Shown one piece after another: positions 18,431-55,893 of a DNA stretch of 64,000 nucleotides. The stretch comes from Xestospongia muta. Lineage: Eukaryota; Porifera; Demospongiae; Haplosclerida; Petrosiidae. Below the pieces are notes generated by a model. That model saw only the letters and a list, made by a program, of their open reading frames with translations. It had not been told where the DNA came from and searched no databases. The stretch lies in NCBI GenBank assembly GCA_963693285.1, contig OY848920.1, positions 6,151,135-6,215,134 on the forward strand, given 5' to 3'. Within the stretch, counting starts at the first letter, position 1; every line of letters begins with the position of its first letter. Made by a program: the position numbers and the translations under genes.

Positions 18431-18858
18431 TTACTCAGTGGTATGTAGAGGTAGGCCCACATGTTTACTTATCTCATTAGCTTTTTTCTTGTTATTAACT
18501 AAACTGTTTTCCATTGTTGAGATCACTGTCTCCCATATAAAAGGTAATGATTGAGTTGTATTCCACTCATCAATTACTTTTGAAAGCCTAATCTTATCAT
18601 CATTTGAAGATGTTTCTATACTTTCCAAAGTATTAGTAGGGACTTTAAAAGATTTACCAATAACTTACCAACTACAACATGTATCAGCCAGTATTTTAAG
18701 CAGATCATGTTCATCAGGAGGGCTCTTTAAAATATCTAAGAAATATAAGATTATGACAAGTACAAGAATGCAGATAAATGTAATCCCTTTATTACTAAGT
18801 ATATCCTCCATGTATCTAGCAATGTCAACAGTAAAAACAAAAGGAAATGTAGAAAAGC
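18431..18858 (-). pseudogene. Membrane-anchored death-domain protein, nonsense-disrupted (copy A)
   Basis: On the minus strand an acceptor (ATAACTTAG at about 18859) opens a frame. A hydrophobic segment (GITFICILVLVIILYFL) is followed by a death domain: PPDEHDLLKILADTCCSW, then VIGKSFKVPTNTLESI, KVIDEWNTTQ, WETVIS and a C-terminal KKKANEISKHVGLP. One TAA falls directly after the conserved Trp (CCSW-stop-VIGK) in an otherwise unbroken frame. Splicing it out as a 28-bp intron would remove the core W-x-x-IG helix. Death domains make homotypic contacts in apoptosis and innate signalling; this one would sit on the cytosolic side of a membrane. The same TAA is in copy B, so it predates the duplication. 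A possible signal-peptide exon lies upstream at 19109-19360. Confidence 0.7.
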
Positions 18859-23475: not shown

Positions 23476-23625
23476 GACTGGCTCTAATCTAATAATTGAA
23501 AACAAAATATTAGCTAGGTACTCTTGTACATTTTATATAGAGGATGCTATTAGGTTATAGGTTAGTTAACTCTTGCTCACTGAGTGATCTCTAAAGGCCA
23601 GGTTCTATACAGTACATGCACCAGA

Positions 23626-24955: not shown

Positions 24956-24959
24956 ATAC

Positions 24960-31440: not shown

Positions 31441-32821
31441 GTGTTTGAAAAAGACATTTTTTATCTTGTAAAAGTTAATTTTTTGCATCATTGTCTTGAT
31501 GTTCAACCCTTCTTACAATATTTGCATTAAATGTATGTTAATTTTGCTTTTTAATGCTACTAATTTATTTTGCTTGTGTACAGTTTGATAGATAAAGTTT
31601 TTGATGTTTGATTTCTTTATTAGTCAATTAAATGTGTAAGATATTGTAGTGGCTATTATTACATGTAACATGTAACATCATAGATATGTTTAGGGCAACA
31701 TGAGGTATTCTATAACATTAAAATTACTGATTGGTGACTCTTCAGCAAAAGTAAGTTATTGTGAATAGTGTGCAGATTATGTTTAACACCACTTGCTGAC
31801 ACATGCATAGTGACAGGACAAACCAAGCAGAAACTAGTCTAGTTCATGGATGAAAAATAATATGTGCTATTGCATGTTATTAGTAAGTTGTGTACATAAT
31901 TTAGTTAATTGACCTTACAAATGAAACAATTTTTTCTCACTATGCCTATATACATCTCTTTTTGATTTATGTCATATTACCTACACAACTAAACCCTAAA
32001 CCCTACAAGATTATAGGCTAAGTGATACTTGTAAGCTAAGTGAGAGTAGGCAAAGAGAGAAGCATCCAATGAAACATATAAACTTGCTATATGTAGCAAA
32101 GACATTTACATTTAGACAAGTATATTAGCTAGTTGTGATAATAGCAATTCTACTGCTTCAACTATGAATATTGTTTATATGTGTGTCATATACAGGTATA
32201 TATGGTTTTTGCCTTGTCTTATTATTGTTATCATTACAAACACACTATAAGTATTTGATGACTTTTTTGATATGACTCTTGTATCATGTTTAATCTAGCT
32301 TATAGACAATTAAAGTTGTCTTGTATGTTAAATATCTAATAGAATGGACACTCATTTACACTTACATGTACATAGTCAGAGCAGTAAAATTACTGAGTGG
32401 TTATCACAGCTATATAACTGTATACTGGTCTAAGTGTTTCATTTGGAATATGAATTAATTAAATGCTGTAAATGTTGTTATGCTGGAAAAAAAGTGAATA
32501 CAAAAAAAATAGTACACAAAAGGCAGTTGCTATTTGTCCATACTTTGTTGTGTATTATGACACTAAACCCTTACTCTCTAAACACTTAACGATGACTATG
32601 TCCAATATACTGTATGAGTGAGCAGGAAAATAGTGAACACAACTTAATTACAATTAAAATACTAGTTTATCAATGCATTCTTCAATTTCTACACTTTCAA
32701 GCAGCATTGAAGATACATTTATGATAAAATTTACACCAAGAATCTACTCATTAAAATGGATATTCCAGGTATGACTTGGCCACTATTGTCTTTTAACTTA
32801 GAGAAATTCTAAAAATTAATA
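31441..32821. other. STK40 3' flank and intergenic region
   Basis: AT-rich sequence with no recognised gene. The short CTAAACCCTAAACCCTA near 31990 resembles a plant telomere repeat but is only two units. The region belongs to the 4.7 kb absent from copy B. Confidence 0.45.
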
Positions 32822-34070
32822 TTATAAAATTAATAATATAACAAAAAAATAATATTTATTCCTTGTAAGCTTCTTAACTATATGTTCAACTAAACTATAT
32901 TTGCATTTATGGGGTTTACTTAAAATGTCAAGAATTGTGTTCCATTTAAAAGGTGGCTGCCCAATATCTTCCCACAGTTTAAATAAAGCTTGATAGCATT
33001 CATAACAATCACCTCTGTACTGGACGTTTATACCTTCAAGTTGTTGGCAAAGCTGAAGAGAAGATCCAACCATTTTCCATTTGCTAAGAGCATATGGTGC
33101 AACCATTTCCATCAAATCTGTAATTGTGAGTTCGACCTCAATAGGTGGTATTACTGGAGGAAGTACGGGGAGACCTATGTGAAGTAATTTTAATTTAATT
33201 TTGCTAAACATTTTTACCAGATATCTAGTTAACGTATATAATGCATTGGTAAATCAACTATAAAACCTATGCTACTATTATCTGTTACTATCATACTTTT
33301 AAAAGGTTTTTATGATTAGAGAGAAGGTATATACTTCATTAGTGAAATGAAAATGGAAACACAAGAGAGTGAAGATAATTTTTTGGTAGGTTTTAGTTAT
33401 CATTTAACAAGAAACTCAAGCAGTAACTGAAATCAATGTTTTGTTAAAATGTTTTTGACCACATGTTATGTATGTAACTGGATATGTTTATTTTCATCAT
33501 TTTAATATAAGTATTGTTGCATTGACTTTTGAAAGAAACAAATGAAATTAAACTGCATCCTTTAACTGCTGATACATATAGCACCATGAATGTTATTAAC
33601 ATTAACCACAAGCAGTATGGTCACTATGATGATGGGTGTGACTGACAATGTTTGAAGCTTCTTGCTAGCTTGCTTCTTTGCTCTAGTATTCTATAGTTAG
33701 GGTTATAGTCTTTCACAGACTACATGGAAGTTAATTATTCAATCTTTAATAAATGTTTCACTGTGAAGCTAGTATCTTTTAAAACAAATATATGATGGTT
33801 TTTCAATCATAATCTTGTTTAAACGTTTTACAGTGATACCTACTTAGCTTACTTCAAGTTAAAATTCTATCAGAACTTAAGCATCGTTTTACAATAAAAT
33901 AGTATATGATTTATTAACAGGGTGTAATAGGTACATTTAGTGTTTTCTTATGTAGTCCAAAGTTATGGCATGCAAATATATATAATATAGCTCCATACCT
34001 TCCTGTTGTTCACAAGAGTCGACTGTAATTCTGCTATGTTCATGCATAAGTAAATTTTCCTCATAAGTGT
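32822..34070 (-). CDS. Death-domain protein, 3' exons only (copy A)
   Basis: Minus-strand exons 34070-33999 and 33174-32822. The second encodes a proline lead (LPVLPPVIPPIEVELT) and a death domain: ITDLMEMVAPYALSKWKMVG, then DCYECYQALFKLWED, PFKWNTILDIL and LVEHIVKKLT. Junction phases agree (CAG GAA G / GT CTC). The copy differs from copy B by a longer C-terminus (reads on after NKYY instead of stopping at NKY). The upstream exon known from copy B (63124-63675) is missing because the duplication ends at 34499, so copy A is a 5'-truncated partial gene. Confidence 0.75.
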
Positions 34071-34499
34071 CTACAATTGTGATAAAACAACAATTATTAT
34101 ATTTTACATAAGTGAGGACACTAATTTCCATCAAACACCCAGTGTAAATAAACAAGCACATTCCCTTAAATAGCTACTTTTGTTATTCTACTTCTCTTTC
34201 TAAAGTTAGTTAAAGACCTCAATGTCATTGCCAGTTAACTCTTCCTAAAATCAATATGTTCAAATGTCACAAATTTACCACTGATATGAGTTAACCTTAA
34301 CTTAGATCTATAATCAAACTGTCTACATTACAGTACCAACCATTTTTGAATTACACAGTTGCCTAGGTATACTTACCTGAGTCTACTTGGCTGATGGATC
34401 TCCTTATAATTTGAGTGCTTCTTTTAAAAGTCAAAACTATAATTAGAAAAGAAATTATTTCATTAATAACATGTAAGTAATATTATAAATATACAGAAG

Positions 34500-34868
34500 A
34501 TTAGTGCGCAATGAATATAAGAGTTACACTGAAAAATAATAGATAGGAAAATGAAAACAACTGAAGGTCTCCTCATATCAGGACATAAAACAGATATTAC
34601 TACAGAAATAAAATATTGTTTGTCAGATTGAGGAAATAAGTAGTGGCATTCAGTAAATGTGCTAATTAGTTAGTAGCCAAATTGTAATATGATCACTGCA
34701 GGGGGATACACAAAATATATTCGAGATGTAACTGTGCTATGAAAATGATGACTTAGTAAGCTGAAGAAACTGTTATCTTTTCGACTATGAGTTTTGATGA
34801 GGTAAGATGTTAATTTGATAATTCTAGTTTAATTAGTGAATATTGTACACTAGCCTATGGTATATGTA
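34500..34868. other. Junction filler between duplication copies
   Basis: 369 bp with no counterpart elsewhere in the window and no coding signal. It separates the right breakpoint of copy A from the left breakpoint of copy B. Confidence 0.6.
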
Positions 34869-34991
34869 GAGATCACTGTCTCCCATATAAAAGGTAATGA
34901 TTGAGTTGTATTCCACTCATCAATTACTTTCAAAAGCCTAATTTTATCATCATTTGAAGATGTTTCTATACTTTCCAAAGTATTAGTAGGG
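34869..34991 (-). pseudogene. Membrane-death-domain gene, 3' part (copy B, split)
   Basis: Death-domain residues TLESIETSSNDDKIRLLKVI through WETVIS, left of the transposon, then lost at the duplication breakpoint 34869 (frame continues into TYTIG and a stop). Its other half is at 51189-51415. Confidence 0.75.
34986..34991. other. Target-site duplication, left (GTAGGG)
   Basis: GTAGGG directly precedes TATGGAATAC. The same six bases follow the element at 51189-51194, while the unoccupied site in copy A (near 18632-18637) has one GTAGGG in AGTATTAGTAGGGAC. Confidence 0.92.
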
Positions 34992-35520
34992 TATGGAATA
35001 CAAACCACGACAAAAATAGGCATCAAATTCACGATTATTGAACACTCAAAATTCACGATTTTCCAGTAATTCACGATTATTGCACACTCAAAACACATGA
35101 CACTACCCGGAAATTCACGATTATCATATTTCACAATTCACGATTTTACTGTGAATTCGCGATTATTCCACTTCTCAATTCACGTTTTTACCGAGAGTTC
35201 ACGATTATTGCAATTCGTGAATTCACGATTTTATGGTGAATTTGCAATTCAAAATTTTAGTTATTCAACTAGCAATCTTCAATTTTGGTAAGTCTCGATA
35301 CTCTATCATACTAGAAATTCTCTCTATTTCAGTATTTAAGATGGGGGTCAATTAGGGGTCAAAATGGGCGTGGCAACGAACAGAATGGTTCTCTTCTTAT
35401 TATATGAAGGTACTTGGTAAGGTGATATTCTCAAGATACTATCTACTTTCTGTTCTCATTGACCTATGTTTAACTCATCAGATTATAATTATTATTATAA
35501 TTATTATTGTTATTATTATT

Positions 35521-35552
<32 letters not shown>

Positions 35553-35575
35553 CGTTGTTGTTGGTTGTTGTTGTT
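34992..35575. repeat. Left terminal inverted repeat with AATCGTGAAT motifs
   Basis: About 580 bp matching the right end (about 50563-51188) in inverse orientation. The first 250 bp hold roughly ten copies of TTCACGATT (variants TTCGCGATT, TTCACGTTT), spaced 15-30 bp and in both directions: likely transposase-binding sites. Further in comes a (ATT)n/(TTG)n microsatellite (about 35484-35580). Confidence 0.85.
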
Positions 35576-35639
35576 GCTGTTATTATCATTATTATGATCA
35601 TGACCATTATTGTTATTGTTATTTTTATTAACATTATTA

Positions 35640-35990
35640 CTAATATTGTTAGTATTAGTATTAGTTTTGTAGTAGTAGTATAGTTATTGTTATAAGTTGT
35701 TTCTAAATTTTATAATAATTTGAAGTTCACTATTGGTTTCTCCATATTGTTTTAGTAGTAGTATAGTTATTTTAAATAATTGTTGTTGGTTATGTGTGAA
35801 ACTAATTTAATTTTTGATACTGTTATTAATTGGTACTGAAAGTATAAATGCTCTCTCTCAAGCAGTACTGAAGCACACTATAAATATTTAAGATATTGTA
35901 TTGTATCCTCTATTATATGTGCCAAAAATATGTTCCTAATCTTATTCCTCATACAATGGAGTTCTGCAAATATATTAAATGTTTAATAAA
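35640..35990. other. AT-rich spacer, related to 46855-47040
   Basis: After the microsatellite comes a block with TATAATAATTTGAAGTTCAC and TTGGTTATGTGTGAAA that resembles, in direct orientation, the block after the (ATT)n run at 46805-46850. No coding signal. Confidence 0.4.
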
Positions 35991-35999
35991 ATATTAACC

Positions 36000-36836
36000 A
36001 GCTGTTCCCAACCTTATATTTATAGAAGTTTAACGCCTGACGTTGATATAGTTAATGCATTACTGACTAACTTAATTGCATTATTTTTCAATGATCAACT
36101 TCCACCTCTGCCTCATACCTGTAAAGATTCTTGTCCCCTACTGATAGCCCTGTGCATAGTCTCATCTCTGAACTGTTTATCATTTAATTTTATTTCATGA
36201 ATTAAAAAAATCATCTGATTCAGACAAAATTACAGTTAAAATGTTTGAGACTATGGCTGTCTCTATCACACCTACTACTACAAACTATTCATTATGTCTA
36301 TACCTAACAGTTTAGCTCCTTCATCTTAGAAGGTAGTATTTGCTGTACCTATAACAAAGGTAAATGGACCTCAATCTGTTGATAGGTTTTGTCCTAGTTC
36401 TCTGTCACCCATTATTGATAAGCTACTTGAAAAGAATATTTCATGATATTAAGCAACAACTTCCAGGGGTCTTGTTCCTTTTTAAATAATTAATAAATTT
36501 TTCTCCCAAAAACATCAACTATCTCAACTCAACTTCTATTCGAGATGATTGGTATAAATTGTGAACAAGATATCTTCAATTTGCCCAGCTTTCTTTGAAA
36601 AAAAAATGCTTTCTTAGTGTGCCACATAAAATATTGCTACTAAAATTAGAAAATATGGGGATTGGTAACTTTTCTACTGATATGGATTTGTAACGATTAA
36701 TCTGGTAGTGTATAATATATGTTATCACAATGGCGTTCATTTAATAGAACTACCAGTCATTTCAGGAATACTTCAAGAGTCAGTACTAGGTCACTTGCTA
36801 TTTCTAATTTACACAGATTATATTACTCCAGCTGAA
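36000..36836 (+). pseudogene. LINE reverse-transcriptase fragment (left arm)
   Basis: Decayed reading frames carry non-LTR retrotransposon marks: a region like the CR1/Rex1 linker with DSDKITVKMFETMAVSITP, then VISGILQESVLGHLLFLIYT, which corresponds to the RT motif around V-P-Q-G-S-V-L-G-P-L-L-F. Many stops. Ends abruptly after TTACACAGATTATATTACT, where the PARP fragment begins. The inverted counterpart in the right arm continues past this point. Confidence 0.7.
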
Positions 36837-37118
36837 TACACAGATTACTTTGCAACTGATGCAAAATATTCCAATTCCTATGCCCATTGGCTACCTAACA
36901 GGCACAGACAAGTGTTTATAGCCAATGTACTGACTGCACGCCTGCCGAACAATTCACTAAGAACGCCACCAGTGAAGACAATGGAGTCGTCACCAGATGT
37001 TAATTTTAAACAAGTCTGCTACAATTCTGTAACTGGTTTAAGTGGAGATTATATCATTTACATGACTTATGACAATTTGAAGGCACATTCAGCCTATCTT
37101 ATCATTTATTCTGTTTAA
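36837..37118 (+). pseudogene. PARP catalytic-domain C-terminal fragment
   Basis: An open frame reading YFATDAKYSNSYAHW, RQVFIANVLTARLPNNSLRT, PPVK, then CYNSV and DYIIYMTYDNLKAHSAYLII to a TAA at 37116-37118. These correspond to the PARP14/15-type catalytic end: YFA-x-DA-x-YS, the V-L-T-G strand, R-x-PP, YDSV and the final F-x-D-x-x-AYPEYLI. The G-x-YFA glycine and the N-terminal half (HG...G loop) are missing, so no ADP-ribosyl transfer is expected. It directly abuts LINE sequence, and no counterpart exists in the right arm. Captured or leftover host gene piece inside the transposon. Confidence 0.55.
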
Positions 37119-37879
37119 ATCATTTTAAACATTAACAAAAATGATAGAATAAAAGAAAGAGAAAGTATTATCTGTGTTGTCATGAATACACTAATTGTTA
37201 GTAGACATACATCAAATTTGAACAAGTCTGTATATTTTGTTTCCATGCGAACTATAAAAGTGCACTAACGTTTGTCTTGTTAGTAGTCCAACATGTGGGA
37301 TCGATTATGTTTCTCTATTCAGTGTCCCAATGAAGAGCTCAGTATATAATACTATGAGTCCTAAACCCAGACTAATATAACAGAGTAGTAATAGTTACAG
37401 TCTTATTTTATTGTTACTGTATTATTGCATGTTCTAATTCTCATCTACACGCTTTTGATTTAATTAGCAATAATTAGTGCAGACTAACATGACACGTGTT
37501 CGTGCACATTCGCAATATTACATCACTGCACGTTGCCTTGTGGTTTCGAAAGCTAAAGAGAAAGCCTTCTGTTGCTTTTTGTGTGTTGACTCGCTTGTTG
37601 GGAGTCGCTAAGTATGTTCTTTACTTGAATACATATTTTTTCGCCAGTAACTAAGCAAATTGCCTACTCTCACTAAGAACTATGTTGTCTCAGCTGTTGT
37701 TTTTCTGGTAAGAGTATTTACTTTTTAAATTGTTGATAATTCACAATACTATCGTTTTTCTAGACCAAACCATGTTCTCCTTCTCATTCGGTTTTCTTGC
37801 AACATATTTGCAAGTTCATGGGATCCTGGTTTATGTAAGCGTATTATATATATATATATACATATATATATATGTATAC

Positions 37880-37931
<52 letters not shown>

Positions 37932-37939
37932 ATACATAC

Positions 37940-37974
<35 letters not shown>

Positions 37975-37975
37975 C

Positions 37976-38030
<55 letters not shown>

Positions 38031-39105
38031 ATTTTATACATATATATATATACATATATATACATATATATATGTAAAGTGTACTTACAATGTATCAATT
38101 ACTTTCCTGCTACTTTTCATTCCTGTTAGGATTTTTAGTGAGCAACTACTAAATTTAGAACCCAACCAGTCTAAATTGCATACAAGGCATCGAGCTTTAC
38201 CTATGTGATAATTATATGAGTCTTTGCATGCTCCATTCAGGCATGTGGTATAATAATTTTGTGGTTTTACAATGACTGTTTTTGCCTTTGTTACCAAGAA
38301 ATGTTCCAACACCTCTCACTTGACCCTTTTTAGGACAGCTTTAGATTGGTAATAGTTTAGACCCGCTGGTTTTTTGAATGCATTGTTGCCTTAGTTGTCA
38401 AATTATATGAACACTTTACTCTTTTCAGAATTATTGTGTTAGGATTGACCTCTCAGAACTCTTGTGTTAGAGTTGGAAATTCAATGATTCTTCAGAGTTC
38501 AGAGCTCTCGTGTTAGAGTTAAGCATTCAAGCTGAAGTACTTGTTCTCCTTTGGTCTTCTACGCAATCTGAGTTATCACAAGTTTCTTGTGTCCAGACTC
38601 AGGTGAGTTATTATATACAAATGTACTTAAAATTAATCAGTTGCATCTTATGACTAGACATATGCCTGTATTTTGTTGCTGTAGTTTACTCTAGGTACAG
38701 TCTTACAGGCTCACAAGCCTAAAACACACGAGGGCTAATAACCTTAGTTGACCTGTGTGATAAATAAACATACAGACATGTAACCAAAATAATTATTGAT
38801 CTTACATGTTAAGGGCATGTGTTAGTTGTACACAAGGCGTGTTCAACACCTTTCACTTAACCTCATTTTAGGACAATCTTGCTGACTAATTTTTGACATT
38901 GTCTTCTAATAGAGTTGCTGTCTTCTGGTAAGTGTAATATAGTAATAGTTGGTTGTTTCATGTGCCATCATCTTTCTAGACAAAAAACTTTTTCTTGTTC
39001 TCTCCATTGGCTGTCATAGAACATTATGAGAAGTCTATTAATTCCTGGTTTAGGTGAGCTATTATATATAAATTCACTTACAATTAAATTGGACTTACAA
39101 GAAAG
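37119..39105. other. Left-arm spacer with TA/CATA microsatellite
   Basis: No gene recognised. 37847-38075 is a (TA)n/(CATA)n microsatellite that produces meaningless YIYI frames on both strands. Two blocks recur at about 37700-37840 and 38930-39070 (TCTGGTAAG ... TCCTGGTTTA), as do 38302-38345 and 38840-38880 (AACACCT(C/T)TCACTT ... TTTTAGGACA), suggesting an old internal duplication of about 0.5-1.2 kb. Confidence 0.5.
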
Positions 39106-39107
39106 TA

Positions 39108-41817
39108 TCTAGAAAGAATAAATGAACGTCTTGCTACTGTTTGCTCAGTCTTTATGTGGTGTGAAGATAAGTTTGAAGTTTGAGAGAGCACTTTTAGTTG
39201 CCTGTAAGTATTAACTGTCAAATGTTTATGTTTTGTCAATGAGGTTAACTTATTTAACTAGGGCAGTTTCAACATGGCAGGTTTAATATCACAGGATGAT
39301 GTTGAAAAGGCCCATTCTCATCCCTATCTCATTGTCAGTATCTCATGACCCAGGACTAGCTCTGGTGAGACTGAATTGTGTATGTATACTGTACATGCAT
39401 ACCAATTATATCTAGTCACTTGCATTCAAGAGCACAATCGTGTGTACAGATCAGTAGACATATTTTATTTGTGTAGTTACTGCTATCACAGTCTCTAGTA
39501 CACATCTGCATGCAGGTATATAGGTTGAGAAATGACCTTTCATATATGTCTACCTATGTATAGATAATGCAGGTGCTACAGTTCAACAAACATGTGATGT
39601 TCCACTGAGCAATCTCCAAAGAGCCAGAGAAAGGCTCACTGCTAGAGCTCGAGAATCTAAAAATGAAAGTTCTTTTAGCAGGGAATTCACTCGAACATCA
39701 TCTTTCTTAGGACAGAAGAGAAGTTCTGTGAAACTATTGGGCAAAGCAACCTTGTAAACGTGCAGCGAGAACATGGGCGCACAAATTTGTTTGTTTAAGT
39801 CGTTGTGCCCAAGACATCATACCAACTACTGATAGTGAGAAAGATGCTTTGTTGGAAGCTGGGCTTGGGGAGAAGAAGATTGTCATTGAAGATGTTGACT
39901 GCTCAGGGGAAGAGTTTCGTGAACTATTGCATGCAGCATTTCCAAAATTAAAAGATTCTGGTGGCTTCATATTTGCAAAGTGCAAGTGTAATTCACGGTT
40001 TTTAGAACCACTCTCATCTATGTGCTTAACCTCACCAAGACGTTTACAAGAAAGAATTGGTAACTCTAGAACATACATCATCCCATTGCAGAGAGATTTA
40101 GACTTGACACCCTGTCAACTTTCACCTGGGGTAAGGCTTGCAGATTATTAATCTGAACATATTTATCATACATGTACACATAGCCTGTGGAGAAGTGCCT
40201 ATCATGTGCTGAGGACGTCCCTGTAACAGTGTTATGTCAGCATTTGTTATCTTGTATAGAGCCAAAGACTGTTTTAAAATTGTCAACAATTGTGACTTTT
40301 CTCCCACTAAACTTATGCACAAGTTATATTTTGACATAAACAGGACTTTCGTTGATAGGTTTTCTTCAAAGGAGGAGAACAGGGTGAAGATGGTGGAGGA
40401 CTAAGAAGAGTACTTTGGCATCTTTTCTTATTACAACTGAAAGAATGTTACTTTGAGGGTGAAGAGAATAAGAAAGTAGTTCGACATGATATTCTTGGTC
40501 TTCAAGTAAATGTGAAATTGTTTGAATGATATTGATGGTTTTAAATGTATGAAATCTGTTGCTGCTAATTATTTTCTCTCAACTCCATTGTAGACAAATG
40601 TTTTTTTACAAAATTGGCTGTTTGATGTCTGTACCTCTTAGTCAAGGAGGATCAGGCTATCCTTATATCTGTAAGGAGGTTTATGATTACCTTTGTGGCA
40701 AGGAGCTTAACGAAATCACTATTGACTACACTATTATACATGATTATGACATCAAGCTATTAGTAAGCAAGGTAAATAAGTCATGATGACAACATTATAA
40801 TTACTTCTAATTTAAGAGTGTATTCATGTGAGACTTACTGAATTAATCTAATTCTGTTGTGTAGTTTCTTTATTTTATGTGTTAAAAAGAATGACAGTAC
40901 TGTATTGTTTATAGACTCGTTAATTGTTGTCTTAGATTATAGATGCTGTCAGCAACGAGGAGATCCAAGCCCTATCAATGGATGCAATAGAAGTACTGTC
41001 CAACTGTGGGTTCAACAAGGGTCCCACAACTTTGACACTTGAAGATCGTTCTACTTTGGTCCATAGTATCACAATGTACTATACAATACTTCGATCAAAA
41101 GCCGAGCTTGATCAACAATGGAACGGACTTGGAACACTTGGTGTGGCAGATGCCACGAAGTCTCACCAGAATAGTCTAGAATCCCTTTTCACTGCTCCTT
41201 CACACCCTACTGAATTGACTCCAGATATCAAGTAGTACATGTACTCTCTGGCAATGTGTTTTTCATTTATTCCTAATAGTTATTATCAAGTCACTGTTTC
41301 AAAACAGAGCTCGCTACTCTGAAAATTCAAGTCATAGAAAAGAGAAAGAGATGGCAACATATGTACTTTTTGGTGACTATTTAGAGGATTGCAAAGGTAA
41401 GTAGTTCAGAAATTCTAACTAAAAGGCGACTTGTATCTACCAATAATGTTAAGACTTTCTCATGATGAGGTTGGTCTTGTGGTTTAGCACTCTAAGTAAT
41501 TACACAATTAAATAAGTTTACAGCCTCCACTGTTTAAGTGGTTTCTTTGATGTCATTCATTAGTTACTTCATGTATACATTCACTAAGATTGGTTATAAG
41601 ACTTGAATACACTGTTTTTATGTACTTTCACATTCCTTACAGGTTAGTGTAATAAAGTTTCCTTGAAGGATGTTCTCAGTTTTTTACTGGTTCATCAGCT
41701 GTACCTCCACTTGGGTTTGATATAGGTCCAACTATGTCGTTCAGCCACAATGCAGTCTATCCAACAGCCTCTACATGTGTTTTCTCACTCACTTTACCTA
41801 CAAGATACTACAATGAC
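39108..41817. repeat. Long inverted repeat, left arm (HECT gene)
   Basis: About 2.7 kb mirrored at 44005-46731 with only scattered differences, the largest a deletion in exon 1 of the left copy. The two arms enclose 41818-44004 with the transposase. Confidence 0.92.
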
Positions 41818-41883
41818 TACAATCAATTTAAGCTCAAAACGAATCAGCCGTTTACTTGTCATGGTGGGTTTGGCTTAGTTTGA
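39274..41883 (+). pseudogene. HECT-type E3 ubiquitin-ligase-like gene (left copy)
   Basis: Exons: 39274-39364, 39573-40130, 40359-40505, 40594-40771, 40936-41231, 41308-41396, 41658-41883 (TGA). Marks: an Arg/Ser-rich N-terminal part (LQRARERLTARARES), KDALLEAGLGEKKIVIED, the HECT N-lobe VFFKGGEQGEDGGGLRRVLW, IGCLMSVPLSQGGSGYPYIC, then the C-lobe FFTGSSAVPPLGF and YPTASTCVFSLTLPTRYY with the presumed thioester Cys, ending GFGLV. Layout matches G2E3-like HECT proteins of animals (ubiquitin transfer through Cys). Breaks: exon 1 has a deletion after DDVEKA; one frameshift lies before KRAARTWAHKF; two lie in T-runs at 40601-40607 and about 41681-41686. The catalytic end is complete here, unlike the right copy. 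Confidence 0.75.
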
Positions 41884-42073
41884 TTAATGTTATGCTCAAT
41901 ATTATGCTCTTGATGAAACTATGTCAATCAATAATATATCTTATCCTCATTGTATTCATTTTATGTTCAATTTATTTGTTTTCCTTGTATACTCTTGATG
42001 ATGAGATTTTGGTAAAATGTTTTGTCAATCAATCTTTTTTTGGAAGAAATCTTTTCAAAAAAGTGAAAAATGT
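41884..42073. other. Spacer between the HECT left copy and the transposase
   Basis: Short AT-rich gap between the convergent HECT and transposase stop codons; the hydrophobic frame starting at 41856 is an overlap product, not a gene. Confidence 0.5.
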
Positions 42074-43708
42074 TTATGTAACTGTTTGTGTAACTGTTTT
42101 TGGAGGAGAGTGGCAGTTTGATAGGAAGGCTCTTGCTAAGAAATAGTGTTCTACACCAAATTTTGTCTCGGGGTACTTTTGAAGTTCTTCTGCTAATAGG
42201 ATTCTTTGATGTTCAGTTAAGAAATTAGAGGGAAGATCAGGTACAATAACAGTATTACTATCATCATCAGTACTCACTGGTCCACTACAATCAAGGCCAT
42301 AGTCACAATCCTACAAATAAAAGCACCTGATAAGTAATACTTTCATTTCTTTCTAAATAGTACTCACAACAGTATGCTAATCTAACTTTACACATGGTAT
42401 AATGTTACAGACTTAAAATCTGCTATGCTTTGTAAACTACAGAGGCTAACATACATACTGTATAACATGACACTGATTACAAAATATACATACTTCAGTA
42501 GTTCCTGTAACTCCTAGTACTGCCGTACTTGTTGGTGTTTCCATCCTAGCTTGAGTCATTCCCAGAATCCATAGCTGATGTGGTGTTTGGTTATGTGCTG
42601 TACGTTGAGGATGGTTACACCATACCTCACGAAACATGTCCACTTGAGATTGTATAATTGGTAAATAAACATAATGAAGGGCACATAGATCAACTTCACT
42701 AGCTGGATCTAATAGACCGACTTCTTCCAGCAAATAGAATAGGAAGTAATAGAAACTAATGCAACCTTGATAAAGATCTCTCCATAAACGTTCTATCCTT
42801 TGGTTGTGGACACTTCTACCACAGATGAAACTTCTTTCTGGACCTCTCTCGGAATGATCGAGCATGAAGCGTCCAACTAGAACATTTTCTCCTCCATTGT
42901 CTGAACGTACACAAGATGGTAATCCATAACTCTCGACAGCTTGCAGAAACACATTAAAAACAGTCATAGCTTTGTTATTAGAGGCTACTTTTAAGTAAAC
43001 TGGAACTCGGCTATATCCATCTATACCTCCATGTATTACTAACCGCCACCTTATAAGCTTGTGATATCCATCAATGTGCCACAATGCATTGGGGCTTGCA
43101 ACGTTATATTCCCAACGATGAAGAGTGCTATGTAGCCTAGTTTCCAGTCCCAAGGGGTCAACACGACGAATTGACTCTCTCACTCTTTCTCTTTGCAATA
43201 TCACACCATTAACCTTAAGCAGAGTCTGTATTGATCGTGTGCCACAAGCAGGTAAGCGTGTTACAATCTCCTTAACTAGGTCATCCAAATCTTGATTAGT
43301 TATTTCACTGAATCGATTGAATTCTATCCCAAACTCCTTTAGTTTTCTTTGAATCGTACCTATCGAGCAACCAATCAGGATAGCAATTTCAGTTTCTTTA
43401 AATCCATTTTCAACCAAGAATCTAACTTGATCCTCACATATGTCTAAAGGTCGTCTCACACCCGAAGTAATCACCTCTATCTCATAGTCAGTATTTAATT
43501 GCACAATCAGTTGTTGGACTACTCTAGTCACAGCAGTGAAGTCGTGACGATTAGGAACCAGCAGTTCCAGCTGTACACATGCTTCCAATAAACGGTCAGC
43601 TCCCTCAATAAGAGCCTCCTTAGCTTCTATAGAACTCGAGGAATAGATTCTCTTAATCATCTTTATTCTTTCTTCAAGTTTGTCTATGCTCTCAATCCAA
43701 CCGTCCAT
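42074..43708 (-). CDS. DD35E integrase-core transposase
   Basis: Two exons: 43708-42494 and 42310-42074, joined GT-AG in phase 0 (TGTTE / DCDYG), 483 residues, no stop. The N-terminus has a helical region (about 1-75), then a helix-turn-helix-like stretch [12 protein letters not shown]...[13 protein letters not shown] (about 92-124). The RNase H-fold core shows Asp213 in [10 protein letters not shown], Asp270 in [10 protein letters not shown] and Glu306 in [11 protein letters not shown], 35 residues apart, the IS3/retroviral-integrase spacing. The sequence type is the 'integrase core domain' protein common in fish, cnidarian and sponge genomes. It catalyses strand transfer of element ends. 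The only apparently intact gene in the transposon, so the element could be active or recently so. The promoter side (43709-43930) carries four TGATGWCATCA palindromes. Confidence 0.88.
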
Positions 43709-43781
43709 CTTTATGGGTGCTTCTTGGTGTGACTTGACTGATGATGTAACAAACTAACAACTCAACATGTGGCATGTCCTT

Positions 43782-43892
43782 TGATGACATCACAATGTGT
43801 CATAAAGTTAATAATGTTAGGTTTGGTTTAGGGTTTAGGTGATGTCATCAATATGATGACATCACTATACGTATTTCATTATGATGTCATCA
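43782..43892. promoter_or_regulatory. Four TGATGWCATCA palindromes upstream of the transposase
   Basis: TGATGACATCA at 43782-43792 and 43854-43864; TGATGTCATCA at 43840-43850 and 43882-43892. The two forms are reverse complements of one another. All lie 74-184 bp upstream of the transposase ATG. The core TGACATCA resembles ATF/CREB or bZIP half-site pairs; a role in promoter control or as internal transposase sites is inference. Confidence 0.5.
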
Positions 43893-43912
43893 TAGTCAAG
43901 TTTCACCAAGAA

Positions 43913-43929
43913 CCCCCCCCCCCCCCCCC
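43913..43929. repeat. Poly-C run (17 C)
   Basis: An uninterrupted run of C upstream of the transposase. Such runs are prone to length error in sequencing and may not be exactly 17. Confidence 0.9.
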
Positions 43930-44004
43930 ATCTTTATGGAGCATACACAGATATAAACTTTTTATTATCTGAATAATTAAAATAAAAAGAGAATTAAGAA
44001 GTCA

Positions 44005-46565
44005 TATCGTGTGGGTAGAGTGAGTGAGAAAACACATGTAGAGGCTGTTGGATAAACTGCATTGTGGCTGAACGACATAGTTGGACCTATATCAAACCCA
44101 AGTGGAGGTACAGCTGATGAACCAGTAAAAAACTGAGAACATCCTTCAAGGAAACTTTATTACACTAACCTGTAAGGAATGTGAAAGTACATAAAAACAG
44201 TGTATTCAAGTCTTATAACCAATCTTAGTGAATGTATACATGAAGTAACTAATGAATGACATCAAAGAAACCACTTAAACAGTGGAGGCTGTAAACTTAT
44301 TTAATTGTGTAATTACTTAGAGTGCTAAACCACAAGACCAACCTCATCATGAGAAAGTCTTAACATTATTGGTAGATACAAGTCGCCTTTTAGTTAGAAT
44401 TTCTGAACTACTTACCTTTGCAATCCTCTAAATAGTCACCAAAAAGTACATATGTTGCCATCTCTTTCTCTTTTCTATGACTTGAATTTTCAGAGTAGCG
44501 AGCTCTGTTTTGAAACAGTGACTTGATAATAACTATTAGGAATAAATGAAAAACACATTGCCAGAGAGTACATGTACTACTTGATATCTGGAGTCAATTC
44601 AGTAGGGTGTGAAGGAGCAGTGAAAAGGGATTCTAGACTATTCTGGTGAGACTTCGTGGCATCTGCCACACCAAGTGTTCCAAGTCCGTTCCATTGTTGA
44701 TCAAGCTCGGCTTTTGATCGAAGTATTGTATAGTACATTGTGATACTATGGACCAAAGTAGAACGATCTTCAAGTGTCAAAGTTGTGGGACCCTTGTTGA
44801 ACCCACAGTTGGACAGTACTTCTATTGCATCCATTGATAGGGCTTGGATCTCCTCGTTGCTGACAGCATCTATAATCTAAGACAACAATTAACGAGTCTA
44901 TAAACAATACAGTACTGTCATTCTTTTTAACACATAAAATAAAGAAACTACACAACAGAATTAGATTAATTCAGTAAGTCTCACATGAATACACTCTTAA
45001 ATTAGAAGTAATTATAATGTTGTCATCATGACTTATTTACCTTGCTTACTAATAGCTTGATGTCATAATCATGTATAATAGTGTAGTCAATAGTGATTTC
45101 GTTAAGCTCCTTGCCACAAAGGTAATCATAAACCTCCTTACAGATATAAGGATAGCCTGATCCTCCTTGACTAAGAGGTACAGACATCAAACAGCCAATT
45201 TTGTAAAAAAACATTTGTCTACAATGGAGTTGAGAGAAAATAATTAGCAGCAACAGATTTCATACATTTAAAACCATCAATATCATTCAAACAATTTCAC
45301 ATTTACTTGAAGACCAAGAATATCATGTCGAACTACTTTCTTATTCTCTTCACCCTCAAAGTAACATTCTTTCAGTTGTAATAAGAAAAGATGCCAAAGT
45401 ACTCTTCTTAGTCCTCCACCATCTTCACCCTGTTCTCCTCCTTTGAAGAAAACCTATCAACGAAAGTCCTGTTTATGTCAAAATATAACTTGTGCATAAG
45501 TTTAGTGGGAGAAAAGTCACAATTGTTGACAATTTTAAAACAGTCTTTGGCTCTATACAAGATAACAAATGCTGACATAACACTGTTACAGGGACGTCCT
45601 CAGCACATGATAGGCACTTCTCCACAGGCTATGTGTACATGTATGATAAATATGTTCAGATTATTAATCTGCAAGCCTTACCCCAGGTGAAAGTTGACAG
45701 GGTGTCAAGTCCAAATCTCTCTGTAATGGGATGATGTATGTTCTAGAGTTACCAATTCTTTCTTGTAAACGTCTTGGTGAGGTTAAGCACATAGATGAAA
45801 GTGGTTCTAAAAACCGTGAATTACACTTGCACTTTGCAAATATGAAGCCACCAGAATCTTTTAATTTTGGAAATGCTGCATGCAATAGTTCACGAAACTC
45901 TTCCCCTGAGCAGTCAACATCTTCAATGACAATCTTCTTCTCCCCAAGCCCAGCTTCCAACAAAGCATCTTTCTCACTATCAGTAGTTGGTATGATGTCT
46001 TGGGCACAACGACTTAAACAAATGAATTTGTGTGCCCATGTTCTCGCTGCACATTTACAAGGTTGCTTTGCCCAATAGTTTCACAGAACTTCTCTTCTGT
46101 CCTAAGAAAGATGATGTTCGAGTGAATTCCCTGCTAAAAGAACTTTCATTTTTAGATTCTCAAGCACTAGCAGTGAGCCTTTTTCTGGCTCTTTGGAGAT
46201 TGCTCAGTGGAACATCACATGTTTGTTGAACTGTAGCACCTGCATTATCTATACATAGGTAGACATATATGAAAGGTCATTTCTCAACCTATATACCTGC
46301 ATGCAGATGTGTACTAGAGACTGTGATAGCAGTAACTACACAAATAAATTATGTCTACTGATCTGTACACACGATTGTGCTCTTGAATGCAAGTGACTAG
46401 ATATACTTGGTATGCATGTACTGTATACATACACAATTCAGTCTCACCAGAGCTAGTGCTAGGGCCATGAGCTGCTGACAATGAGATAGGGAAAGGAATT
46501 GACCGCAGAATTCTTAGTGCCTCTTGGGCCTTTTCAACATCATCCTGTGATAATAAACCTGCCAT
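44005..46565 (-). pseudogene. HECT-type E3 ubiquitin-ligase-like gene (right copy)
   Basis: Mirror of the left copy. Exon 1 is intact here: the ATG at 46565 opens MAGLLSQDDVEKAQEALRIL and runs to a GTGAGA donor. The later exons repeat the HECT N-lobe, QGGSGYPYIC, the long exon with LSNCGFNKGPTTLTLEDRS and the C-lobe. The same three frameshift positions as in the left copy are present (before the CAARTWAHKF segment and in both T-runs), so they predate or were equalised between the arms. The sequence leaves the inverted repeat after the catalytic TASTC and LTLPTR, so the C-terminal tail is lost. Minus strand, in the same direction as the transposase. Confidence 0.72.
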
Positions 46566-46731
46566 GTTGAAACCGCCCTAGTTAAAGAAGTTAACTTCAT
46601 TGACAGAACATAAACATTTGACAGTCAATACTTACAGACAACCAAAAGTGCTCTCTCAAACTTCACATTTATCTTCACACCGCATAAAGACCGAGCAAAC
46701 AGTAGCAAGGCGTCCGTTTATACTTTCTAGA
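44005..46731. repeat. Long inverted repeat, right arm (HECT gene)
   Basis: Reverse complement of 39108-41817. Its inner end falls inside the last HECT exon, just after ...LTLPTR, so this copy loses the last 25-30 codons. Confidence 0.92.
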
Positions 46732-46802
46732 TCCTTTTTTGGCGGTACAACGAGGACGAACTTTGACACAGCAAAATCTGATTGGTCACTGAACTCTTAC
46801 TC

Positions 46803-46842
<40 letters not shown>

Positions 46843-47290
46843 ATTATTATTAAGTAGTGTTTATATTTTAAATAATTTGAGGTTCACTGTCGTTCTCTTA
46901 TCACATCTACAAAATGTCCATATTAGTTCTTTCGATTATTTGTCATTGGTTATGTTTGAAAATAATTTTATATTTATATAAAATTTAAGACAAATAGTAA
47001 GCCAACAGGTACTGATAAGCCATTTAGACATTTACCCTTTATTCAACTAAAAGAACCATGTTTGAGAACATTGCTTGAATTGTTGTGTATGTACTTGTCT
47101 CAATATACTGCAGTTAGCAATAGTTTGTACTAATAGCTTCTAATTTTTTCTTTAATTTTCTACTCTCTTGACTGTGAGCAGACAGTAGTTACTTTAGCAA
47201 GATGTTCGTTCTACTTTCTACTTACTTTTATGGCAATACAATAAGAACAGATGTTTGACACAACAAAATCTGATCGGTCACTGAACTACA
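46700..47290. repeat. Duplicated HECT 5' flank and (ATT)n
   Basis: 46700-46805 (CAGTAGCAAGGCGTCC ... CTGATTGGTCACTGAACTC) recurs in direct orientation at about 47180-47290 (CAGTAGTTACTTTAGCAAG ... CTGATCGGTCACTGAACT). A (ATT)n microsatellite occupies 46805-46850. The block is upstream of the right HECT ATG; CTGATTGGTC contains an inverted CCAAT box, so it may be promoter sequence. Confidence 0.5.
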
Positions 47291-47775
47291 ACTCAATCAA
47301 ACATGACCTTTACCCTCTCTTCTTTATAACAAGATAATGAATGATAACTAATATTCATTACTATATGAACTTGACCAGTATTTATCATGTCAGTACTCAA
47401 TGCTAGCTTGGCTACATCAGGTCATGCTCATTGATACTAATATAGTAGACACTAATGGTTATTCACAAATACTATATAGATCTATATAGATCTACTCACT
47501 CATAAATAATGATATATATATTTATAGCTATAATAATGTGATGGATTACTAATCAAAACTCATAGATACTTATGATAGTCATTGATACTAATAGCATGTA
47601 CAACTATCTATCAGTATCTAGACTACAAGAACTCATGTATGTCATATATTATGTATATATGAGATTATGACAATGAATTGCTAGCTAAGATTGATGGAGA
47701 TAGATATGGATAGATAGATCGACAAATGGCTAGGTGGCCGAGTGCAAAAGGACCAATGAATGGTTAGACAGATTG

Positions 47776-48165
47776 GTAATAGGTGTATACATGTATGATA
47801 AGATAGGATATAATGTTATGTCAGTACAGGCTGTAACACCTGTTGCTAGAAAGGTCATCCAATAAAACAATGATGCCTGAATACACAGTTAGTACAAAAT
47901 TTATATGTATGACTTCGAAATTGATTTGTAAGCCAACAGTTATGCACAGAATGATTTCAACTGCCATAATGTCTTTGACAGTGCTGTACTAACTGCTTAT
48001 ATAAGAAAGTAGTAAGATGTACATGTATGCATGTGAAGTACAGACTCGTAATAGGTGTATACATGGATATGTATGATAAGATAGGATATAATGTTATGTC
48101 AGTACAGGCTGTAACACCTGTTGGAATGGTAGAAAAGTCATTCAATAAAGCAATGATTATAGCCC
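47776..48165. repeat. Direct repeat pair of about 105 bp
   Basis: 47776-47876 and 48048-48160 share TAATAGGTGTATACATG, GATAAGATAGGATATAATG and CAGTACAGGCTGTAACACC. The second has a few-base insertion. No coding signal. Confidence 0.75.
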
Positions 48166-48199
48166 CATACATTAACACACATTAAACAATTATGCCTGA

Positions 48200-49560
48200 A
48201 TTAAAATATAATTCATGCCGTATTTATTCACTTAATGATAGTCACTTTACAAAGATAGATATCTTGTGCCAAAACTTCAGTATCCATTCCATTGGCCAAT
48301 TTGACTCAAAGAAATTAGACTTTAAGGGTTGCCATAGAGATCTTAAAGACTTTATGTTACCAATTAGGCTGTAAGTCCATTGTAATCACACCAGTTAGGA
48401 TAATGTCATTTTTCTCATAAATATCTCGTGCCAAAACTCCAGTATATATTCCCTTTTATATTTGTACTCACATTAATTTTGGTCATGTAAATTTGTTACT
48501 AACATCATTTTACAAAGCTATCTTGTGCCAAAACTTTATTATGTACTCCATTAGCCATTTTCACTCATAGAAGTTAGGGTTGAAGGACTGTCATAGAGAT
48601 CTTAAGACTTTATGTTTGGCGAATAGGGTTTAAGGGCCTTTGTAATCATGCCTATTAAGATGATGTTGTTTTTCAAAGATGAATTGGTTATTAATGTGAC
48701 TTTCCAAATTAATCCTGTGCCAAAGCTTGAGTATCTACTTCATTGGCAATTTGACTCTTAGAGATCAGACTTTAAGGGATGCTCTACCCATCTCAAAGCT
48801 TTATGTTTAATAATAGTTTTAAGGCCACTGTAATCATGCACATTAGAATGATGTCATTTCTCTCAAGTGAATTGGTTACTAATGCCACTATATATATGAA
48901 CATATCTTGTGCCAAAATTTCAGTATCTACTCCATTGATGATTTTCATTGATATAAATTATGGTTTAAGGACTGCAATAGAGACCTTCACATTTGGCATG
49001 TTAGGGTTAAAGGCCATTGTACTCATACCAATTAGTATGATGACATTTTTCTCATGTGAAATTATTGCTAATGTCTTTCCAAACACATCTTGTGCAAAAG
49101 GTTCAATGTATACTACATTGACCATTTCCTCTTATAGAAATTAGGGTTTAGAAATTTCCATAGACATCTTAGGGCTTTACATTTGCCAATTAGGGTACAA
49201 GACCATTGCAATTTTACCATTTCAGATATGTCATTTTTTTATGAATTGGTTACTAATGTCATTATATGAAGATATATTGTGCCAAAACTTCAATATCTAC
49301 TCCATTGATGACTTTAACTTGTAGAAATTAGCTGTTTAAGATCTGTCATAGATATTTTGAGACTTTATGTTAGGTAATTAGGTTTTAGGGCCTTTCTAAT
49401 CATAATAATTAGGATGATGTAATTTTTGTCATGTGAAATGGTTACTAGTAGACTTCTCAAACATATCTTGTGCCAAAACCTCATCATCTACTACATTGAC
49501 TATTTCCACTCATAGAAATTTGGGTTTAAAGACTCATGCACAGATGTTAAGGCTTTTGGC
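48200..49560. repeat. About 190-bp degenerate satellite in the right arm
   Basis: Seven or eight diverged units, each with CTTGTGCCAAAACTT, CTACTCCATTG, CATAGAAATTAGGGTTTAA, GTCATAGAGATCTTA and AATTAGGATGATGTCATTTT. The CTTGTGCC marks occur near 48263, 48425, 48522, 48714, 48906, 49090, 49277 and 49467, mostly 184-192 bp apart. Found only in the transposon's right arm. Open frames inside (for example 48779-49144) are incidental. Confidence 0.8.
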
Positions 49561-49990
49561 ATGAAACATCTATTGAAATAACAGGCAGAGTTTGTGGAAG
49601 ATAACAGTTTTGAGGAATAACCTCCTTACTTTTAATAGTCGATGATTTAAGGAACATAACATATCATTATAACTATGACTTGTGTGTCAATTTGATATAC
49701 ATAGTTTGACTCAAAGCTCAATGCCATTTTCTGGTTAGGGGTTTTAAAAAGTAGCGTAATCTAAGTACTGTCCCACGTAAAAAATATATATAGCCTTTTA
49801 AAAGTGTGTTTGTCAGTAATATTTATAAAAATGTATAAAAGTCAAAACCAAGTAGTGGCCTACTTTTGTTATATACTGTATTAATATAGAGTGCAGTAAG
49901 TTCATTAGTTAAAAGTACATCAAGAATAGTTCATGTTGCTGATGTCTTCTAATTATAAGATAATTTTATTTAAACAGAGACTGATTGAAA
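49561..49990. other. Right-arm spacer, nothing recognised
   Basis: AT-rich, without coding or repeat signal. Confidence 0.4.
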
Positions 49991-50560
49991 TGTTCAAGGG
50001 TACTCTACATTAATGTGAAATTCAACTTCGATTTAGAAGGGTTTAGACTAAAGTAATTTTCTTGAACCCAATTATTAATAAGGTTAATATCATTTGAAGA
50101 TGGTATAGTCTTCTGGGACTCTCTAATTTCTTTCAATAAAACTATACGATCAGCATAGAGATATCTAAAGAGAAGAAAAGATTAGTAATATAATCTGTGT
50201 AAATTAGAAATAGCAAGTGACCTAGTACTGACTCTTGAAGTATTCCTGAAATGACTGGTAGTTCTATTAAATGAACGCCATTGTGATAACATATTATACA
50301 CTACCAGATTAATCATTACAAATTCATCTCAGTAGAAAAGTTACCAATCCCCATATTTTCTAATTTTAGTAGCAATATTTTATGTGGCACACTAAGAAAG
50401 CATTTTTTAGTCAAAGAAAGCTGGGCAAATTGAAGATATCTTGTTCAAAATTTATACCAATCATCTCGAATAGAAGTTGAGTTGAGATAGTTGATGTTTT
50501 TGGGAGAAAAACTTATTAATTATTTAAAAAGGAACAAGACTCCTGGAAGTTGCCATGATC
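49990..50560 (-). pseudogene. LINE reverse-transcriptase fragment (right arm)
   Basis: Inverse counterpart of the left-arm LINE piece (about 36468-36836), then extending further: after LLFLIYTDYIT the minus strand continues ADRIVLLKEIRES, INLINNWVQENYFSLNPSKS, the RT thumb-side region after the (degenerate) A-D-D box. Multiple stops. On the outer side the LINE joins the TTG microsatellite directly, so about 0.87 kb present in the left arm is missing here. Confidence 0.7.
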
Positions 50561-50562
50561 AC

Positions 50563-51188
50563 AATAATGATGATAATAACAGCAACAACAACAACCAACA
50601 ACAACAACAACAATAATAATAATAACAATAATAATAATTATAATAATAATTATAATCTGATGAGTTAAACATAGGTCAATGAGAACAGAAAGTAGATAGT
50701 ATCTTGAGAATATCACCTTACCAAGTACCTTCATATAATAAGAAGAGAACCATTCTGTTCGTTGCCACGCCCATTTTGACCCCTAATTGACCCCCATCTT
50801 AAATACTGAAATAGAGAGAATTTCTAGTATGATAGAGTATCGAGACTTACCAAAATTGAAGATTGCTAGTTGAATAACTAAAATTTTGAATTGCAAATTC
50901 ACCATAAAATCGTGAATTCACGAATTGCAATAATCGTGAACTCTCGGTAAAAACGTGAATTGAGAAGTGGAATAATCGCGAATTCACAGTAAAATCGTGA
51001 ATTGTGAAATATGATAATCGTGAATTTCCGGGTAGTGTCATGTGTTTTGAGTGTGCAATAATCGTGAATTACTGGAAAATCGTGAATTTTGAGCGTTCAA
51101 TAATCGTGAATTACTGGAAAATCGTGAATTTTGAGTGTTCAATAATCGTGAATTTGATGCCTATTTTTGTCGTGGTTTGTATTCCATA
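50563..51188. repeat. Right terminal inverted repeat with AATCGTGAAT motifs
   Basis: Mirror of the left end. It has one additional unit of the motif block (about 51062-51140, containing AATCGTGAATTACTGGAAAA twice), so the two ends differ in repeat number. The (ATT)n/(TTG)n microsatellite is shorter here. Confidence 0.85.
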
Positions 51189-51194
51189 GTAGGG
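51189..51194. other. Target-site duplication, right (GTAGGG)
   Basis: GTAGGG follows ...GTATTCCATA. Together with 34986-34991 it defines a 6-bp duplication, checked against the empty site in copy A. Confidence 0.92.
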
Positions 51195-54217: not shown

Positions 54218-55893
54218 AATCTCTGGGACTGTTGCATTAGGACACAGTAGATGGGACTGTTACATTGGGACACAGTAGACATGTGAGTTACGTTATGACA
54301 CAGTAGTGTTACATTAGGACACAGTAGATGGGATTGTTACAATATGACACAGTAGACAGGGAGTTATGTTATGACACAGTAGATGGGACTGTTACATTTG
54401 GACACAGTAGACATGTGAGTTACGTTATGACACAGTAGTGTTACATTAGGACACAGTATACAGGTGAGTTACATTAGGACACAGTAGGTGGGACTGTTAC
54501 AATATGACACAGTAGACAGGGAGTTATGTTATGACACAGTAGATGGGACTGTTACATTATGACACAATAGACAGGTGAGTTCAATCTTTATGACACAGTA
54601 GATTGAACTGTTACATTAGGACACGGTAGACAGGTGAGTTACATTATGACACAGTAGTGTTACATTAGGACACAGTATACAGGTGAGTTACATTAGGACA
54701 CAGTAGAAGGGACTGTTATATCAGGACACAGTAGACAGGTTAGTTACGTTATGACACAGTAGTGTTACATTAGGACACAGTAGACAAGTGAGTTAAGTTA
54801 TGACACAATAGTGTTACATTAGGACACAGTATACAAGTGAATTACATTAGGACACAGTAGATTGGACTGTTATATCGGGACACAGTATACAGGTGAGTTA
54901 CGTTATGACACAGTAGTGTTACATTAAGACACAGTATACAGGAGAGTTACATTAGGACACAGTAGATTGGACTGTTATATCAGGACACAGTAGACAGGTG
55001 AGTTACGTTATGACACAGTAGTGTTATATTAAGACACAGTATACAGGTGAGTTACGTTATGACACAGTAGTGTTACATTAGGACACAGTAGATGGGACTG
55101 TTACATGAGGACACAGTAGACAGGTTAGTTACGTTATGACACAATAGTGTTACATTAGGACACAGTATACAGGTGAGTTACATTAGGACACAGTAGATTG
55201 GACTGTTATATCAGGACACAGTAGACAGGTTAGTTACGTTATGACACAGTAGTGTTACATTAGGACACAGTAGACAAATGAGTTATGTTATGACACAATA
55301 GTGTTACATTAGGACACAGTATACAGGTGAGTTACATTAGGACACAGTAGATGGGACTGTTACATGAGGACACAGTAGACAGTTTAGTTACGTTATGACA
55401 CAATAGTGTTACATTAAGACACAGTATACAGGTGAGATACATTAGGACACAGTAGATTGGACTGTTATATCAAGACACAGTAGACAGGTTAGTTACGTTA
55501 TGACACAGTAGTGTTACATTAGGACACAGTAGACAAATGAGTTATGTTATGACACAGTAGTGTTACATTAGGACACAGTAGTGTTACATTAGGACACAGT
55601 ATACAGGTGAGTTAAATTAGGACACAGTGGATTGGACTGTTACATGAGGACACAGTAGACAGGTTAGTTACGTTAAGACACAGTAGTGTTGCATTAGGAC
55701 ACAGTATACAGGTGAGTTACATTAGGACACAGTAGATGGGACTTTTACAATATGACACAGTAGACAGGTGAGTTATGTTATGACACAGTAGTGTTACATT
55801 AGGACACAGTATACAGGTTAGTTACGTTATGACACAGTAGTGTTACATTAGGACACAGTATACAGGTGAGTTACATTATGACACAGTAGATCA
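54218..55893. repeat. GGACACAGTA minisatellite (copy B)
   Basis: Counterpart of 21655-23475, about 150 bp shorter, with modules gained and lost. Confidence 0.9.

Follow-up and report, generated by a model that had tools for sequence, protein, structure and literature searches.

A near-palindromic IS3EU-type transposon with a HECT-type gene in each arm in the sponge Xestospongia muta

The transposons closest to the element described here are the following. IS3EU/GingerRoot transposons have TA..TA ends, usually a 6-bp target-site duplication and an integrase-type DDE transposase without an HHCC finger (PMC10045372), and the IS3EU families of rust fungi have TAYGG..CCRTA ends and a 6-bp duplication (PMC12730594). 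Fungal IS3EU elements, among them the TET+ elements of rust fungi and a truffle, carry TET/JBP dioxygenase and alpha-kinase passenger genes beside the transposase (PMC12730594). The KolobokP composite-like transposons offer a further comparison, being DNA transposons of animals in which the arms are repeated and one more enzyme is encoded (PMC9587614). Here we analysed a stretch of 64,000 nucleotides from the sponge Xestospongia muta (assembly GCA_963693285.1, contig OY848920.1, positions 6,151,135 to 6,215,134; hereafter the window), which holds a 16,197-bp transposon, and searched the genome (158 Mb, 28 contigs) for its relatives. The element is most probably an IS3EU-type cut-and-paste DNA transposon that was turned near-palindromic by inverted duplication of an arm bearing a HECT-type gene. 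It shares the TA..TA ends, the 6-bp duplication and the fingerless integrase-type transposase with the IS3EU/GingerRoot description, whereas its near-palindromic 16-kb body with two HECT-type genes has no counterpart in the available part of that description (PMC10045372). With the TET+ elements it has in common the TAYGG..CCRTA ends and the 6-bp duplication, both as described for the rust families, and the presence of passenger genes, while its cargo is a HECT-type gene doubled in mirror arms instead of a TET/JBP dioxygenase and an alpha-kinase (PMC12730594). The long repeats of KolobokP are direct, its transposase is another one and its extra enzyme is a homing endonuclease, in contrast to the inverted repeats and HECT genes found here (PMC9587614). 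The features of the element, in positions of the window, are as follows.

34992..51188, no strand assigned: whole transposon, 16,197 bp
34986..34991, plus strand: left target-site duplication, GTAGGG
51189..51194, plus strand: right target-site duplication, GTAGGG
18636..18641, plus strand: unoccupied site, a single GTAGGG, in the tandem unit
34992..35562, plus strand: left terminal inverted repeat, matching the right end exactly over 91 bp at the tip and at 98.5% over the 538 columns that follow
50575..51188, minus strand: right terminal inverted repeat, with one 42-bp unit more than the left end
36457..36827, plus strand: middle inverted-repeat block, left arm
50184..50552, minus strand: middle inverted-repeat block, right arm, 97.3% to the left block
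39098..41807, plus strand: inner inverted arm, left, with HECT gene copy 1
44005..46741, minus strand: inner inverted arm, right, with HECT gene copy 2, 97.6% to the left arm
42446..43708, minus strand: transposase, 420 aa, DD35E integrase core (PF24764 rva_4, E-value 5e-78, with the 435-aa stop-to-stop frame)
39560..41880, plus strand: HECT-type E3 ligase gene, left copy, in exon-like pieces, the C-terminal piece with its TASTC motif complete
44005..46565, minus strand: HECT-type gene, right copy, the last coding piece cut by the arm boundary, with an in-frame stop in the second piece
35026..35230, plus strand: left subterminal array of the motif AATTCACGATT, 9 motifs on the plus strand with at most one mismatch
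50908..51154, minus strand: right mirror array of AATTCACGATT, 11 motifs on the minus strand

The original prediction, made from the letters of the window alone, had defined the transposon by its exact inverted ends, by the duplication of GTAGGG and by an unoccupied site in the tandem copy, and had placed an unbroken DD35E transposase at its centre; all four claims hold. The element starts with TATGGAATACAAACC, whose complement stands at the right end, and closes with GGTTTGTATTCCATA; the two ends are identical to each other in their outermost 91 bp. GTAGGG is present on both sides, and the flanks fused with one GTAGGG align with the empty site through the junction at 96.7% over 827 columns, the left part of this homology covering only 127 bp up to the start of the tandem unit. 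The insertion probably postdates the tandem duplication, because the tandem units have diverged by several percent and the GTAGGG duplication is perfect. The transposase frame is open, with 420 residues counted from its ATG, and D213, D270 and E306 are invariant across 46 aligned sequences, positions that leave 35 residues between the second D and the E.

The body of the element is near-palindromic, with longer stretches between the mirrored blocks unmatched, and the transposase sits between the inner arms, each of which holds one HECT-type gene directed towards the centre. Much of the element's length appears to be an inverted duplication of one half, together with the unmatched stretches in each arm. 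The original prediction had stressed that the element is very large and that its cargo was not familiar from the IS3EU group. The size stands; the inverted duplication that makes up much of it had gone unseen, and the recognisable cargo is one HECT-type gene per arm, in a superfamily for which passenger genes are already recorded (PMC12730594). The subterminal AATTCACGATT arrays are likely to be transposase-binding arrays. The motif is found on neither strand in the 47.8 kb of the window outside the element, and away from the ends it occurs within the element (at most one mismatch) only as two mirrored single sites in the HECT arms.

Among the eight Pfam matches of the 435-aa transposase frame there is no integrase zinc-finger family, and rve (PF00665) falls just below its cut-off (E-value 5e-7). 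The nearest prokaryotic NCBIfam models, IS481 (1e-13) and IS3 (4e-8), are likewise under theirs. A predicted model of the transposase (best of five; mean predicted local distance difference test score, pLDDT, of 83; predicted template modelling score, pTM, of 0.50) would resemble retroviral integrases and IstA/TnsB transposases, which a fold search retrieved with E-values near 1e-6 and template modelling scores of about 0.3 over the whole chain and 0.75 over an integrase core domain. A search of solved structures gave two marginal matches, T32-15-1 and F4132-2, and no integrase. The protein collection contains 3,400 relatives at E-values up to 0.001, among 7,223 candidates, and those named in another search come, among others, from fishes, corals, molluscs, lancelets, sea cucumbers and basidiomycete fungi; viral contigs, scanned for related transposases, yielded none. 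The full-length transposase occurs at eight places in the sponge genome, six of them without a stop.

The IS3EU-type assignment of this recently mobile transposon is well supported by its ends, duplication length and integrase-type transposase as compared with the published descriptions (PMC10045372; PMC12730594), in line with the original prediction, which had read the TAY ends and 6-bp duplications in the same way. Two other superfamilies were considered and rejected. IS481EU has duplications of about 4, 15 or 25 bp and TNT..AYA ends (PMC10045372), whereas the present copies have 6-bp duplications and TATGG..CCATA ends; Ginger1 combines an HHCC-bearing integrase with a 4-bp duplication (PMC10045372), whereas the duplications here are of 6 bp and the transposase has no zinc-finger match. 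A 6-bp duplication is also described for Polinton/Maverick elements (PMC10045372). In the literature searched, we found no paper that treats HECT and IS3EU together and none that combines long terminal inverted repeats, a palindrome, gene conversion and a DNA transposon.

A search with the first 309 bp of the element returned at least 59 matches, a lower bound with 40 of 73 candidates scored. Nine further places have both ends, and together with the window copy (A) they form a set of ten copies, A to J, of 14.5 to 24.8 kb. Perfect 6-bp duplications, all different, flank six of them (A GTAGGG, B AATATG, C GTAACT, E CACTTC, F CTTATG, H CTCCTA), and TATGG..CCATA stands at both ends of all except J, whose left tip reads TATGA with one changed base. 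Of the ten copies, the window copy included, nine have the anticipated ends and six the anticipated 6-bp duplication. Copies E and F occupy unrelated sites with different flanks and duplications, but their alignment of 16,351 positions contains 7 substitutions (indels excluded), and therefore the family has moved very recently. This near-identical pair suggests that the element may still be moving in Xestospongia muta.

HECT pieces that point inward are present in both arms of all ten copies. The four proteins retrieved with these pieces all carry HECT, and the best match, LOC135337323 of the sponge Halichondria panicea, shares the HECT C-lobe with its conserved STC cysteine, whereas identity is only about 30% over 61% of the query. 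The T and C of the STC/NTC motif are invariant in all five HECT sequences compared, and we take the cysteine to be the catalytic cysteine of the HECT C-lobe. The gene presumably resembles G2/M-phase-specific E3 ligases; a search of solved structures with the HECT pieces found nothing. In the window, the left copy has a degraded first piece, and the reading frame of its second piece is not that of its third; both HECT copies there are probably broken or decayed. The second and third pieces share one open frame in copy H (right arm, 226 aa) and in copy I (205 aa). The other copies compared have, in at least one of their arms, an insertion of about 400 bp within the HECT gene (corresponding to about 40266 and 45546 of the window, or about 5275 and 10555 of the element) that is missing from both arms of the window copy and may serve to mark exchange between arms.

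In eight of the ten copies, the last piece of the right HECT copy breaks off at one and the same position, residue 51 of 75, which points to a single duplication event. A relative on contig C14, the locus of which was read in part, has a transposase 80% identical over residues 12-290 (the match is limited to those residues) and one complete HECT C-terminus convergent with it, with no second HECT match nearby; this single-HECT layout is the arrangement expected before the duplication. From this anatomy, the ancestor would have carried one HECT-type ubiquitin-ligase gene beside the transposase, and the HECT-bearing arm would have been copied once, inverted, onto the other end with the loss of the last 24 codons of the copy, perhaps during repair of an excision gap, after which the near-palindromic form would have spread. 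Transposition itself may proceed by binding of the transposase to the subterminal AATTCACGATT arrays, cutting at the ends and joining to the target with a 6-bp stagger.

Later, the two arms of several copies appear to have overwritten each other, for which gene conversion, or template switching during the filling of excision gaps, is the most likely mechanism. In window copy A, the arms are identical over 1,043 bp of the HECT region, while their closest counterparts in C and B show differences of 0.5 and 0.7%, and in this 1,043-bp test the arms are each other's nearest relatives in four of the ten elements (A, D, G and J). Longer homogenised runs were found in D (99.8% over 3,731 columns), H (99.8% over 4,736) and I (99.7% over 5,920), with the right-arm type on both sides in H and the left-arm type on both sides in I. 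The overwriting is patchy, since in A, B and C a 371-bp outer block clusters according to side and not according to element.

The mirror arms, each with a HECT gene, could also have arisen as a composite, in which two neighbouring insertions of opposite orientation now move together by their outer ends. Some bacterial composite elements look like this, and we regard the explanation as unlikely here, though it fares best among the alternatives. No cluster of AATTCACGATT end motifs lies near the element centre; such a missing second set counts against two nested elements, with the proviso that inner ends could have been deleted. The constant cut residue of the right HECT copy and the single-arm anatomy with the same outer ends, which the C14 relative shows in part, argue against it as well. 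That the palindrome or the junctions come from misjoined reads is highly improbable: copy I contains 200 N and four copies are without a duplication, as an assembly artefact might have it, but six copies stand at unrelated sites, each with its own perfect 6-bp duplication, the inner boundary is the same in eight of the ten and the empty site lies in the same window. Least credible is a Polinton/Maverick-type element, a class with long terminal repeats, a length of 15-20 kb, an integrase, DNA polymerase B and virus-like genes, which the size, the 6-bp duplication and the integrase-type enzyme would fit, but the element has TA..TA ends, none of the eight frames tested with Pfam has a viral-type domain, and the longest frame besides the transposase is of 145 aa and therefore leaves no room for an unbroken DNA polymerase B.

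Beyond the inverted duplication of the HECT arm in this family, the association of HECT gene and transposase extends to other loci of the genome. The HECT-piece matches (54) merge into 39 loci and the transposase matches (79) into 44; of the 39 HECT loci, 30 have a transposase locus within 6 kb, and a limit of 10 kb adds no others, against a chance expectation of about 0.2 within 10 kb. On these positions, the HECT gene is not random cargo and is a standing partner of related transposases in this genome. A compact, non-palindromic sister family of 6,362 bp has 240-bp terminal repeats, TATGG..CCATA ends (TATGGGGTGT..ACACCCCATA) and the HECT gene followed by the transposase on one strand, with a 6-bp duplication (AAATCA) in one of its two copies and none in the other. 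In another group, known by positions only, the two genes are on opposite strands. Among 19 more distant HECT loci, scoring 57 to 41 bits with the searched piece, 18 are stop-free in that piece and two are without a detected transposase nearby. In comparison with the C14 relative, one HECT piece shows 8 synonymous and 19 other changes, and part of the transposase 38 synonymous and 65 other changes. Separately, contig C2 (15783082-15966210) has six HECT-piece matches over 180 kb with no detected transposase nearby, again by positions only, which are possibly a host gene array.

Several observations weigh against this account, both in its mobile and palindromic aspects and in the role given to the HECT gene. 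Copies D, G, I and J have both ends without any recognised duplication; the swapped flanks expected from recombination among these four were sought and no 6-bp flanks matched, so simple pairwise recombination among them does not appear to account for the missing duplications. In the 1,043-bp test, the arms of B, C, E, F, H and I are not mutual nearest relatives, a result in which E and F, as near-duplicates, carry little weight. The pieces of the left HECT copy, placed end to end, score 22.7 bits with PF00632 (E-value 9.2e-5), just under the cut-off of 23.9, which those of the sister family pass with 24.3 bits. The ratio of non-synonymous to synonymous change (pN/pS) of the HECT pieces is 0.42 to 1.05 in nine comparisons with the left copy of the window, a weak constraint within the palindromic family that leaves function in that family unsupported; the corresponding values for the transposase, 0.29 to 3.69 in six comparisons, with a seventh free of synonymous changes, scatter too widely for a comparison. 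Nine HECT loci are without a detected transposase and 14 transposase loci without a detected HECT piece, and because family copies are not independent, the 30 paired loci amount to about three groups that keep the pair. Outside this genome, none of 113 long transposase relatives has the HECT domain PF00632, which is a weak test.

The HECT protein would probably have been of use to the element; what it acted on might, speculatively, have been a host silencing factor or the turnover of the transposase. Tentatively, and with less likelihood than its opposite, the HECT-type ligase may be a standing second gene of an entire animal branch of IS3EU transposons, for counter-silencing or transposase control, of which one family has become a self-correcting palindrome with arms repaired by gene conversion. 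If the HECT gene does act for the element, cut-and-paste transposons would have ubiquitin ligation as a further passenger activity, next to the TET/JBP genes of fungal IS3EU elements. Arm homogenisation is usually studied in the palindromes of sex chromosomes; the present copies, being of different ages, make up a natural series along which the homogenisation of a mobile palindrome can be traced from one copy to the next.

Short places that match the element end were observed at C13:1976573-1976963, C2:5206940-5207357, C8:6619564-6623520 and C10:1182337-1184390, known by their positions alone, and are possibly non-autonomous derivatives. A diverged relative of 11.3 kb (C2:1271705-1282991) has similar ends (84 and 80%), with local alignments of 85-90%, and an interior of other sequence than the element. 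No HECT match, transposase match or duplication was found in it, and the first base at its left tip differs; its longer frames resemble, we assume, pieces of retroelements. In the window element, a diverged tandem repeat of about 189 bp, with some 6-7 units that are about 60-80% alike, is confined to the right arm (48231-49580), and the left arm contains the 145-aa open frame (36681-37118), which has no Pfam match and is presumably a decayed reverse-transcriptase piece.

The host locus is a tandem duplication, about 18515-34864 and 34865-62489 (minus the element), with a unit of about 16.35 kb and long matches of 91-97%. Matching minisatellite arrays are present in both units, namely 28-bp repeats at 21664-23472 and 54226-55890, 28- or 56-bp repeats at 25374-26311 and 57680-58707, and repeats of about 157 bp at 26785-27445 and 59180-59699.

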